Of a stretch of 41,045 nt of DNA, positions 1,775-41,045 are shown piece by piece. The position numbers and the translations under genes are program-made. The DNA lies in NCBI RefSeq assembly GCF_002154725.1, contig NZ_MTAW01000137.1, positions 1-41,045 of the forward strand, read 5' to 3'. The DNA is from Nostoc sp. 106C (GTDB taxonomy: Bacteria; Cyanobacteriota; Cyanobacteriia; Cyanobacteriales; Nostocaceae). Numbering within the stretch: position 1 is the stretch's first letter; each line of letters begins with the position of its first letter. A model generated the notes under the pieces. The model did not search any database, was not told where the DNA came from, and worked only from the letters and a program-made list of their open reading frames with translations.

Positions 1775-4700
1775 TCTGCTGCTGGATGGGAATCTCAATG
1801 ATGAATTCAGCTCCTTGTCCTGGTGCAGAGTTGCACTTCAGTTGACCTCGGTGCTTTTCAACAATAGTTTGATAGCAAATCGACAATCCTAGACCCGTAC
1901 CAGAACCAATTGGTTTAGTTGTAAAAAAAGGATCGAACACTCGAGAACGTACTTCTTCTTTCATACCAGGGCCATTGTCTGTGATGTGTATCGCAACGCG
2001 GTCAAGATCTAACCGTTGGGTACGAATATGAATAGCTGGCGAATTGATGATTGAGTTGGAAGCTTTTCCATTGTTTTGCTCTAAAGAGCATAGAACATTA
2101 CTATCTCCATACTGTTGTTCGATGGCATCGATAGCGTTTGTCAGAATATTGATAAATACTTGATTCAGCTGCCCAGGATAGCACTCAACTTCTGGGAGTT
2201 GAATGTAGTCTTTATAAATTTCAATTCTCGGTCGTCCTGCTTTTTCTTTCAAGCGATGCTGCAAAATTAGCAATGTACTGTCAATGCCTTCATGAATATC
2301 TACATCTTTAATTTCCGCTTCATCCAGGCGGGAGAAGTTACGTAGTGACAGCACAATCTCACGGATGCGATTGGCCCCCATTTTCATTGATTCTAGAGTT
2401 TTTGGTAGATCTTCTTTCAAGAATTCTAGGTCAATGGCTTCTTGTCTATCAATAATTTCCGATACAGGATCGGGATAGTTTTGTTCGTAGTCTTCCACTA
2501 GCTGTAGCAAATCTTGAAGATATCTACTTGTATGAACAAGGTTGCCATTAATAAAGTTAATTGGGTTGTTAATTTCGTGAGCTACTCCAGCTACAAGTTG
2601 TCCCAAACTTGACATTTTTTCTGTTTGAATTAGTTGAGTTTGGGTTTGCTGTAATTGTTGCAAAGCTTGTTGTAAATGCTGATTTTTTTCCTGAATTTCC
2701 AGCGTTCTTGACTTGACTTTTTGTTCAAGATTTCTGCTGTAATCTTCTAAGCTTTCTTTTGCTTCTTTGAGTTTTCCGTTAGCTGATTCTAGATTGGCAT
2801 ATAGTAGAGCATTTTTCAGAGAGATTGCCATTTGAGAAGAAAGCAGTCCTAAAACTTCGAGTCTTTGGGAAGTAAAGGCATCGGTGGTGAGATTGTTTTC
2901 TAAGTAAAGAATGCCAATTAATTGACATTGATTAACTAGAGGAATACATAAAATCGACTTTGGCTTATATTTAGCAATATAAGGGTCTTTAGTAAATTTT
3001 CCTTCTTGAACGGCATGATTTAAGACAATATTTTCCTTCGTTCGGATCACATAATTAATTAAAGAGAGTGGTAAGTAAGCAGCTGTAGTTGCTACAGGAA
3101 TAGACGAGCATAGAGTGAATTCATCTTGCTCGACGGAACCCTTAGCCTCAATTAATAACTGTCCTTCTTTTTCTAAAAGCAAGTAACTCGTTTGAGCGCC
3201 TGCATTTTCCATGACAATTTTTAGTAACTTTTCTAGCAAGCGACTCAGGACGATTTCCCCAGTTAGGGCTTGTGATGCTTTGATAAAGGTAGTGAAATCT
3301 AGGATACTAGAAGCAATTCCACTAGTCGAGTTTGTCGTCTGAGTTAAATCTCTATCTGAAGTTTCTCGTTTATGAATTTGAGAGAAAACTTCTGGATAGC
3401 TTGATTCTAAATCTTTAACTTTTGCTGTTGCTCCCCAGCGGATATAGGTATAGTAAGCCTCAATTAAATAAGTTTGAGCTACTTTCTCGCGACCAAGTGA
3501 AAAGTAAAACTCTGCTGCTAGTTCGTTGGCTAAGGCTTCATCTTGAATGTATCCGTGCTCCTTAGCTTTGGCGATCGCGCGATCGTAAAGCTCCATTGCT
3601 GCAACGATTTGTCCTAAGACTCGCGCTTTTTCGGCTTCTACAAGTTCGTACTTGTGCTGGAAGTTGCAAGGAGCGCGCAAGGCCCATTGCTGCATCTTTT
3701 GCTGATGTTCTTCCACTAGAGCTAAGTACTGTTGTTTTTCGCTAGTTTTCGCTTGAGAATACAAACCGAGAAGAGCCAAGGAATAGAAGAAGGTATAGTT
3801 ACCAAAAATTATCACCCACCCACCAACAGGCGTAATGTAGCCTGCTGCCATTTTCGCGCTGGCAACTGCTTGAGCAAAGTCTTTAAATAGATACAGTAAA
3901 ATTAATTTAGCATTGTAGGTAGTAAACAATAAAATAGGATTGTTTGCTGCTAAAAATGCAGGTAAGCTTTGCGATTCATCAAAACTTTCACCAGTTAGTT
4001 GGTATTTATCCTGGACTTTTCCTAATAAGTTTAAGGTAAGTTGTCGCACAATTTTAATGTAGTCAATACAATATTCTTGCTTTAGCTTGAGCAAGAAATT
4101 GAAGTATTGTGTTTGCTGCTGCTGAACCTTATCCAGCTGCTCTCCTACCCAAAATAAATTGGTGCAGTAGTTCATTGCACAATAGCTAGAAAATTCAATA
4201 TCGCCTGTTTCTAGTCCGCTGTGTGCTCCCTCGATAAATGGTTTGAGAGTTGTTTTAACATGCTCTTTCCAAGGGCGGATAAAGAGATTGACGAGGTTAT
4301 ATACTTTGCATTTGAGTTCTCTAGCATTAAATTTATCTAACAGTTCTAATGCCAATTGACCGGAAAGATATCCCGTCTCCGTCTCCCCCTTGACCGTACA
4401 CAAAAGCATCCCATACAAAGCATAGGCAAAAGCCGCTAGCCCTGAATAACCTTGTTCAATACAGAAATTAATCTGAGTCAATATAATAAGTGGCAAGATC
4501 TCAGGTCTAGCAAAGGTAGAACTGGCCGAAACAGTTATTAGGAGCCGCAAGATTGCCAGTTTGTGAGGATCGCTCATGATGAGAAGATTATCTAAATTCT
4601 CAATTTGAGGCAACTCAAAAACCCAATCCACATCATTCGGGACAGATGTTAAAGAAACTCCCAGCATTTCGAGTGCAGAAAGTCCCGTATCCATTGCTGC

Positions 4701-39299: not shown

Positions 39300-40178
39300 T
39301 CATCCTCGACTCCGGGGATAACGTTCCATTAGATTCCGCACTTGTTCTGCATGATATGAGCTTCTTGTTAGAGGAGAAGAAACTACTTGCAGAAATCCTA
39401 GTTCTTCGCCGAAGGCTTGCCAAGCGGAAAATTGTTCTGGGGTGATGAAATTATCTACCTTCAAGTGTTTTTGGCTGGGTTGGAGGTATTGCCCAATTGT
39501 CAAGATATCGCAATCTACGGCTCGCAAGTCCTGCATGACTTGACGAACTTCGGCATCAGTTTCACCGAGTCCAACCATTATTCCGGATTTAGTGTAAATC
39601 CAAGGAGCAATTTGGCGCGATCGCATAAGTAATTCCATTGTGCGATCGTAGTTACCTTGGGGACGCACACGACGATATAGTCGCTTAATCGTTTCTGTAT
39701 TGTGGTTTAGCACTTCTGGTGCAGCTTGGATAATTATCTCTAGAGCATTCCAATTGCCGCACAAGTCAGGAATTAATACTTCAATTGTAGTTTTGGGCGA
39801 GACAGCGCGAACTGCTGCAATACACTGCACAAACTGAGATGCACCACCATCTGGTAAATCATCTCGGTTTACAGAGGTAATCACTACATGATTGAGTTTC
39901 ATGCGGCGAACAGCCTCTGCCAATCGTTCTGATTCTGTTGGGTCTAAAGGCTTAGGCTTTTTTTCAAAATCTATATCACAGTAGGGACAGGCACGGGTAC
40001 AAGCTGGCCCCATAATCAAAAACGTGGCAGTACCAGCTTGGAAACACTCACCAATATTCGGACAGGACGCTTCCTCACAAACCGTATTGAGCGCTAAATC
40101 CCGCAAAATTTCTTTAACGTTACCGACGCGCTCCCACTGAGGCGCTTTCACCCGCAACCAGTCTGGTTTAACAGTCAC
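39300..40178 (-). CDS. lipA: Lipoyl synthase
   Basis: A radical-SAM enzyme that inserts two sulfurs into protein-bound octanoyl chains. 292 residues. The auxiliary cluster cysteines are Cys34, Cys39 and Cys45 ([13 protein letters not shown]) and the radical-SAM cluster is Cys60, Cys64 and Cys67 (CTRACPYC). The conserved C-terminal RSSYHAE supplies the serine ligand. The start is a GTG at 40178 ([10 protein letters not shown]). It is transcribed away from the tRNA-Pro gene and followed by gpsA. Confidence 0.97.
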
Positions 40179-40325: not shown

Positions 40326-40399
40326 CGGGATGTAGCGCAGCTTGGTAGCGCACTTCGTTCGGGACGAAGGGGCCGCTGGTTCGAATCCAGTCATCCCGA
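40326..40399 (+). tRNA. tRNA-Pro (anticodon CGG)
   Basis: A 74-nt cloverleaf. The acceptor stem is CGGGATG/CATCCCG, the D-loop contains TTGGTAG, the anticodon stem is CTTCG/CGAAG with loop TTCGGGA (anticodon CGG, reading CCG), and the T-arm contains GGTTCGAATCC. The discriminator is A; CCA is not encoded. The gene is intact although a transposon end begins 2 bp after it. A possible -10 (TATAGT) lies at 40308-40313. Confidence 0.97.
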
Positions 40400-40400
40400 T
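40345..40400 (+). other. CAST homing target: PAM, tRNA protospacer and insertion site
   Basis: GTA at 40345-40347 (in the conserved D-loop GGTA) directly precedes GCGCACTTCGTTCGGGA at 40348-40364, which is identical to the homing spacer at 40534-40550 (minus strand). GTN is the published Cas12k PAM. The transposon end TGTACA begins at 40401, 53 bp after the PAM, within the window known for type V-K systems (about 49-66 bp). The expected 5-bp target duplication would be CCGAT (40396-40400). Confidence 0.85.
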
Positions 40401-40406
40401 TGTACA

Positions 40407-40479
40407 TGTCGATTAACTAATTCATTGTCGTCGTTAACAGATTATTGTCGTCATTAACGATTTAAATGTCGTCGAGATT
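40407..40479. repeat. Putative TnsB-binding repeats of the CAST end
   Basis: Four TGTC-containing repeats start at 40407, 40426, 40446 and 40467, a spacing of 19-21 bp: TGTCGATTAAC, TTGTCGTCGTTAACAG, TTGTCGTCATTAACG and ATGTCGTCGAGATT. The TGTCGTCGTTAACA-like word with a flanking ATTA resembles TnsB-binding sites in known type V-K ends. Confidence 0.85.
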
Positions 40480-40533: not shown

Positions 40534-40626
40534 TCCCGAACGAAGTGCGCCTTTCAACCCTCTCAAAAAAATTTGAATGCTTCAAATATTCCTCTTAATC
40601 GACCTAGCTGGAATGGTTGTTGAAAC
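40534..40626 (-). ncRNA. Delocalised homing crRNA with split repeat and tRNA-Pro spacer
   Basis: Read on the minus strand. The first 24 nt of the repeat (40626-40603, starting GTTTCAACAACCATTCC, 22 of 24 matching) are separated by 40 nt from its last 12 nt GAGGGTTGAAAG (40562-40551, 11 of 12). The spacer GCGCACTTCGTTCGGGA (40550-40534) follows and is identical to tRNA-Pro 40348-40364. Only the last roughly 13 nt of the repeat are needed to pair with tracrRNA in engineered Cas12k guides, so the truncated 3' part should suffice. Expression is not shown. Confidence 0.85.
40565..40587 (-). terminator. Terminator-like AT hairpin inside the split repeat
   Basis: On the minus strand, ATTTGAA-GCA-TTCAAAT is followed by six T. 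The stem is only A/T-rich (7 bp with one G-C pair), so it would be weak. It could end the main array transcript before the homing guide, or it may be a remnant of an insertion into the repeat. Confidence 0.4.
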
Positions 40627-40855
40627 CTTGGGATGTAGAAGGAATAGGTCAACCCAGTAATGAACTTTCAACCCACCCCTAGCCGGAATGGTGGTTGAAA
40701 CTTTAGTCAGATAGCATATATCTATATCCTTTATGTGTACTTTCAACCCACCCCTAGCCGGAATGGTAGTTGAAACCCAAATCAACCAATGGTTGCTGAG
40801 TATTAAAGCCAAATATCGGTTTCAACCCACCCCTAGCCGGAATGGTAGTTGAAAC
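40603..40855 (-). CRISPR. Short Cas12k-type CRISPR array
   Basis: Three full 37-bp repeats at 40665-40701, 40740-40776 and 40819-40855, plus a fourth partial repeat ending at 40603. On the minus strand the repeat starts GTTTCAACYACCATTCCGGC and ends TAGGGGTGGGTTGAAAG, closely matching known Cas12k repeats. Spacers are 42, 38 and 38 nt (40777-40818, 40702-40739, 40627-40664). The degenerate repeat lies at the left, so the leader is on the right and transcription runs leftward. The rightmost repeat ends in C instead of G. I see no match of the three array spacers within the window. No cas gene is visible. Confidence 0.93.
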
Positions 40856-40884: not shown

Positions 40885-40990
40885 GAACTTCTTTGAACGG
40901 ACGTGATTGAACAGGATTATCGCTCTTTAATCACTCTCGCGAGATAAAAATCTACAACCCTTATTATGCCGGACTTTTATAAATTTAGGC

Positions 40991-41015
40991 GTAGGTTGGG
41001 TTGAGGAACGAAACC
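40991..41015 (+). repeat. 25-nt copy of the GTAGGTTGGG repeat
   Basis: GTAGGTTGGGTTGAGGAACG plus the next five bases match 1593-1617 exactly. Here it lies inside the CAST end and the inverted partner is not visible before the window ends. It is probably the left end of another copy of the same small palindromic element. Confidence 0.7.
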
Positions 41016-41045
41016 GAATGGCACTAAGATAAGCGAATGTAAAAT

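Follow-up and report, generated by a model that had tools for sequence, protein, structure and literature searches.

What follows the intact tRNA-Pro gene near the end of a contig of the cyanobacterium Nostoc sp. 106C, and does it still belong to a working mobile element? The window, by which we mean the whole stretch of DNA analyzed, is contig C7 at its full length of 41,045 nucleotides, and it comes from an 8.66-Mb genome in 240 contigs with a completeness of 100%. A sequence-only reading had proposed that a type V-K CRISPR-associated transposon (CAST), perhaps complete, starts beside the tRNA gene and extends to the right. The feature in the window is almost certainly the left end of such a CAST. 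It is in all likelihood a decayed left end of an element that homed to tRNA-Pro, a judgment that covers the left end and its decay.

Left end beside the tRNA-Pro gene

The attachment gene, tRNA-Pro with the anticodon CGG (40326–40399, plus strand), is intact and was identified by both ARAGORN and Rfam (RF00005, 64.7 bits). Its left-hand flank holds a 292-aa ORF (39300–40178, minus strand), which from its sequence we take to encode a lipoyl synthase-like (lipA-like) protein and which was the neighbour used to fetch 80 named loci from relatives. A single base (T, 40400) separates the tRNA gene from TGTACA (40401–40406), the terminus of the left end, and homology with the relative G006 stops at 40401. 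An end of this kind, TGTACA, is also present in ShCAST (Tn7747). Four TGTCG sites of the TnsB type follow on the plus strand (40407–40474), starting at 40407, 40426, 40446, and 40467, with spacings of 19, 20, and 21 bp; similar ends occur at the loci L061 and L065. Triplets of TGTCG at such spacing gave two overlapping matches in the window, both at the left end, and none in 100 dinucleotide shuffles. A left end with repeated TnsB-type sites is therefore present downstream of a tRNA gene. The motif CCGAT (40396–40400, plus strand) is a candidate, from the sequence alone, for a 5-bp target duplication.

On its other side, the contig stops 190 bp beyond the CRISPR array, inside a dispersed repeat (40916–41018), which has, among the 40 matches listed, at least 17 more copies that are 85 bp or longer (95–98%). 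This repeat, taken over 40916–41045, probably caused the contig break; together with the first 55 bases of contig C210 it is possibly palindromic. The 55 bases that close the window (40991–41045) reappear as their reverse complement in bases 1–55 of C210, which would fit either a palindromic repeat that links C7 to C210 or a shared repeat. Searches of the genome gave no cas12k or TniQ matches on C210.

Anchor guide and CRISPR array

The general layout of V-K CASTs is described in PMC9938897. There, the truncated repeat (R*) measures about 12 nt and the anchor spacer usually 17 nt, with a GTN PAM, a distance of 46–82 nt from PAM to left end (one exception of 147), an array reversed toward the left end, and a left end downstream of a tRNA gene that points at it. 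According to a review (PMC11406308), the guides of V-K CASTs are truncated in this way, and tRNA genes make up the majority of their att sites.

An anchor guide of this kind, absent from the earlier reading, is found in the window. The 17-nt anchor (homing) spacer (40534–40550, minus strand) is identical to positions 40348–40364 of tRNA-Pro, so that a protospacer with a 17/17 match lies inside the tRNA gene (plus strand). Directly upstream of the spacer is the 12-nt truncated repeat R*, GAGGGTTGAAAG (40551–40562, minus strand). The protospacer is flanked by GTA (40345–40347, plus strand), which fits the GTN PAM given for Cas12k in PMC9938897, and the distance from this PAM to the element is 53 nt, inside the range published there for V-K CASTs. 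The inverted match is perfect over 17 nt, and shuffles gave a mean of 0.02 matches at three or fewer mismatches; the correspondence between anchor and tRNA is not chance.

The array itself consists of three full 37-nt repeats of the V-K type (40665–40701, 40740–40776, and 40819–40855, minus strand; Rfam CRISPR-DR15), which score RF01329 at 46.2–49.2 bits (E 2.1e-9 to 1.5e-8), and a degenerate fourth repeat (approximately 40590–40626, minus strand) with a conserved 5' part. Between them lie spacer 1 (42 nt, 40777–40818), spacer 2 (38 nt, 40702–40739), and spacer 3 (38 nt, 40627–40664), all on the minus strand. Rfam places the three full repeats on the plus strand; our minus-strand reading of the array follows from the truncated repeat with its anchor and from the layout published in PMC9938897. 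With the orientation read from the anchor in this way, the 37-nt repeats are in reverse orientation. A 23-nt repeat pattern, allowing up to three mismatches, occurs four times in the genome, always within the window, and the repeats of the array were found nowhere else in the genome at this threshold.

The three ordinary spacers were searched as one 118-nt query, and some weak matches cross the joins. No convincing target was found for any of them: plasmids gave no match, and matches to Staphylococcus phages (99 records, E 0.09, 27 nt) were taken as chance. In 148 genomes, the array itself and four short matches (E 0.002–0.0095) were all that was obtained.

What had been read directly from this region is confirmed. 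The tRNA-Pro(CGG) gene followed by TGTACA, the four TGTC repeats at 19–21 bp, and the Cas12k-type repeats after them are all present, and the anchor spacer and GTN PAM strengthen the interpretation that a type V-K CAST has its left end here, after an intact tRNA-Pro.

Remains of cas12k and the tns genes

One cas12k gene was found in the genome (NCBIfam NF038191), and it is broken. It lies on contig C127 in three pieces (model positions 170–296, 287–373, and 394–629), which occupy two frames and contain two in-frame stops when translated. A 342-aa ORF without a Pfam match, presumably an IS4-type transposase, interrupts the gene between two of the pieces. The first 169 positions of the model have no counterpart in the gene, which borders directly on an ORF for a type I specificity subunit. 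Downstream of the cas12k stop, a tracrRNA-like stretch aligns to the tracrRNA region of the relative G011, which has an intact cas12k at the same tRNA-Pro; the alignment has 209 identities, 36 mismatches, and 14 gaps, and ends short of the 3' part of the G011 stretch. Energies of tracrRNA–repeat duplexes did not separate cognate from non-cognate pairs, and Rfam searches at E ≤0.5 in C127, C50:18001–26195, C199, and the first 12 kb of C210 returned nothing.

Two TniQ genes were found in the genome, of which one, on contig C50, is of the V-K type. Compared with the PDB, the TnsC and TniQ of C50 hit chains of ShCAST (E 4.4e-59 and 1.7e-64) and are clear homologues of them; the difference from ShCAST is that no intact effector was found here. 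The tnsB beside this tniQ is interrupted by an in-frame TGA. No TGTACA was found in the interval from the C50 tnsB to the adjacent ORF, and no right end was seen beside tnsB. One TnsB-like site remains there before that ORF, which we take to be HNH-like; judged by eye, the corresponding place in G058 continues with further sites.

By sequence, the set in G005 (L207, L208) is the closest relative found of the C50 genes: TnsC is 98%, the C-terminal half of TnsB 94%, TniQ 81%, and an HTH ORF 80% identical, and an HNH-like fragment lies to the same side of the genes. The N-terminal half of tnsB was unmatched in this set, and no tRNA, cas12k, or RM match was found in 37 kb. The tns genes of G011, which lie on the same contig as its CAST, were considered as the closest and rejected in favour of the G005 genes, which are more similar and have no tRNA nearby; their identities to C50 are 92% for TnsC, 79% for TniQ, and 82% and 85% for the two halves of TnsB. 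Contig C120 of G006 matches C50 at 96% in the HTH ORF, 70% in a TPR-like ORF, and 69% in tniQ, with TnsC at 36% and TnsB at 41–50%. Two TnsC matches on cyanobacterial plasmids (H1 and H2; 40% and 35% identity) lie in stretches without a gene annotated as cas12k. A second Tn7-like core (G000:C199, L013, 255–5036) encodes a 922-aa TnsB-like protein, a 368-aa TnsC-like ATPase, and a 310-aa TniQ; from these lengths and the low similarity, we take it as not of the V-K type.

Candidates for the machinery predicted to lie beyond the left end were found on other contigs. A cas12k with a tracrRNA-like stretch is present, as a broken copy on the separate contig C127, and no intact one was found in the genome; a V-K-type set of tniQ, tnsC, and tnsB exists on C50, with tnsB interrupted. 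The suggestion that the CAST is perhaps complete is not supported, given that C7 ends at 41045, that the sole cas12k found is broken, and that the C50 tnsB has its in-frame TGA.

Comparison with known tRNA-site CASTs

The tRNA-site V-K CASTs described in PMC9938897 share with this locus the left end by a tRNA gene, the R* with a 17-nt anchor, the GTN PAM, and the reversed 37-nt repeats. The element here differs from them in that cas12k and tnsB were found broken, no right end was found, the parts are non-contiguous in the assembly, and the target is tRNA-Pro. The CAST of G011 (L065, L119) occupies the same tRNA-Pro with an identical 17-nt anchor and the same repeat type; it differs in keeping a 658-aa cas12k ORF, and its 20-kb stretch gave no match to the RM and TPR genes of C127. 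A cas12k 100% identical to that of G011 occurs at L173 of Scytonema hyalinum WJT4-NPBG1, which is probably the same record as G011.

Linkage of the parts

Whether the scattered genes once belonged to the element at tRNA-Pro can be approached through their neighbours. In five of the nine relatives' stretches compared (G006, G001, G039, G080, and G041), the RM genes of C127 are found downstream of tRNA-Pro, accompanied in G006 and G041 by the TPR-CHAT-like ORF. The other four stretches (L061, L064, L065, and L066) gave no RM genes, and three of these have left-end sites at tRNA-Pro. At this locus the RM genes may be cargo or old neighbours. Both C50 and C127 end within a TPR-like ORF; the 108 bp that their ends share at 78% do not amount to an overlap. 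When the two contigs are joined in thought, the order of a CAST results, with all CAST genes on one strand. The HTH and TPR-like ORFs beside tniQ on contig C120 of G006 likewise speak for a single element, though the TnsC and TnsB there are distant.

In the place where the array would be expected, C127 has a block that we presume to be ilvC-like, as does contig C71 of G006. This join is probably real because the junction between the CAST part and the block is largely unique sequence in the genome. No contig was found that joins C7 to C127 or C50. On this evidence, it is fairly probable that C127 is part of the tRNA-Pro element. For C50 the chances are about even, lowered by the position of its closest set, in G005, away from any tRNA; C50 may instead be an older, separate remnant.

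The strongest alternative is that the end in the window is a lone leftover and that C127, C50, or both are pieces of other decayed V-K CASTs elsewhere, to which we give somewhat less than an even chance. It would account for the connection of cas12k and tracrRNA to the ilvC-like block on C127, for the pairing of the last 55 bases of C7 with a contig lacking cas12k and TniQ matches, for the near-copy of the C50 gene set in G005, which has neither a tRNA nor a cas12k match around it, and for the set beside the same HTH ORF in G006, which has only 36% identity in TnsC and 41–50% in TnsB. However, the searches of the genome yielded a single cas12k, a single V-K-type tniQ, and a single array; in the five relatives the RM genes of C127 are part of the tRNA-Pro locus; and C50 and C127 both end in a TPR-like ORF, with gene order and strand compatible with a CAST.

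Anchored tRNA-Pro loci in relatives

The 80 named loci fetched through the lipA-like neighbour represent the best 80 of 513 relatives. The tRNA-Pro gene, with up to two mismatches, was found in 71 of the 80 stretches and was absent from 9. An anchor with up to two mismatches lies within 700 bp of the gene in 13 of these 71 stretches among the best 80 of 513 relatives (no mismatch in seven, one in two, and two in four), and letters of the repeat tail follow every one of the 13, altered in some (L128, L154, L171, and L201). Shuffled downstream DNA gave no anchor match in 3550 trials. Using tblastn, cas12k was detected in at least five of the 13 anchored stretches, once as a partial gene, a lower bound since several stretches are short. 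TGTACA occurs within 30 nt of tRNA-Pro in 20 of the 71 stretches, a count in which kinds of element may be mixed.

Preservation of the anchor varies. Among the loci L060–L068 it is intact in L061, L063, and L065; no 14-nt stretch of it was left in L060, L062, L064, L066, L067, or L068, and damaged forms are visible by eye in L062 and L066. At L064 (G058), the region from tRNA-Pro to about 780 bp downstream is a husk, in which left-end sites are fused to a 5' tnsB fragment and followed by right-end-like sites, with the middle lost. At L060 (G006, 3775–3790), homology with the window ends exactly at the start of the left end, yet next comes an hsdM-like ORF that seems truncated at its 5' end, as would be expected of a deletion that started from the terminus of the transposon. 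G006 was considered as an empty site but proved not to be a clean one, since the ORF by the tRNA looks, by eye, like a 5'-truncated hsdM when compared with G001 and G080.

Other attachment sites and a wider spread of cas12k were also noted. In two relatives of the same genus, tRNA-Arg(CCG) genes (L112 of G002, 3785–3857; L113 of G005, 3778–3850) have a cas12k about 1–1.3 kb away and are likely a different att site. The cas12k model matched 75 of 148 genomes, including that of this strain, at E ≤0.001, with 58 over the cut-off and often as fragments. Some weak matches will be false, because a control gave matches in 2 of 14 known genomes, none of them over the cut-off.

Proposed origin and remaining alternatives

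Guided insertion by Cas12k, TniQ, TnsC, and TnsB is established for the V-K family, and by analogy we infer the same for the element at tRNA-Pro. In its ancestor, the truncated repeat and the 17-nt anchor spacer would have been transcribed along with the array. The anchor guide, together with the tracrRNA, would have directed Cas12k to the GTA-flanked site within the tRNA-Pro gene, and TniQ, TnsC, and TnsB would have placed the element just beyond the 3' end of the tRNA, which was left intact. Subsequent decay in this strain would have left the left end, the anchor, and the three-spacer array at tRNA-Pro. The broken cas12k and tracrRNA-like stretch on C127 probably belonged to this element and were displaced from it, and the V-K-type tniQ, tnsC, and stop-carrying tnsB on C50 possibly belonged to it as well. 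Since the genome yielded no intact cas12k and the C50 tnsB is interrupted, the element has probably lost its mobility and should be unable to transpose by itself.

That a complete and active CAST exists beyond the contig end and escaped assembly is very improbable. The contig is indeed cut shortly past the array in a dispersed repeat, and the anchor, PAM, and left-end sites are undamaged; yet the 100%-complete genome shows a single broken cas12k and an interrupted tnsB, and a second copy would have to be wholly missing.

We regard as equally doubtful the idea that the end carries a CRISPR array but is non-autonomous, with V-K machinery arriving on other elements to move or guide it in trans. 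This explanation draws on the 17/17 anchor and the array, kept despite the broken machinery, and on L061 (G083), which has an anchor at tRNA-Pro, no cas12k match in its 20-kb stretch, and an intact cas12k elsewhere in its genome. Against it, no partner right end was found at the tRNA-Pro element, no intact cas12k was found in the genome, and recent decay explains the intact anchor equally. It is just as improbable that continued use explains why the guide-and-array end survived its machinery; it would then be a non-autonomous CAST end, or mark an att site, with V-K machinery that is gained and lost along with other elements serving it in trans. Chance resemblance, i.e., an ordinary CRISPR array beside a tRNA gene, has a negligible probability in view of the shuffled controls of the anchor and its recurrence in the same place in the 13 related stretches.

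Implications

A full-text search found no literature on remnants of Cas12k transposons in cyanobacteria; earlier reports of tRNA-Pro as an att site are possible. The decayed left end in Nostoc sp. 106C does not change the known mechanism of V-K CASTs, and adds a decaying member to the family. The tRNA-Pro(CGG) gene beside the lipA-like gene is an att site that has been used repeatedly in Nostocales and other cyanobacterial relatives. The anchored loci span intact, damaged, and husk-like stages, and could be used to order the loss of CAST parts and the survival of the homing guide.
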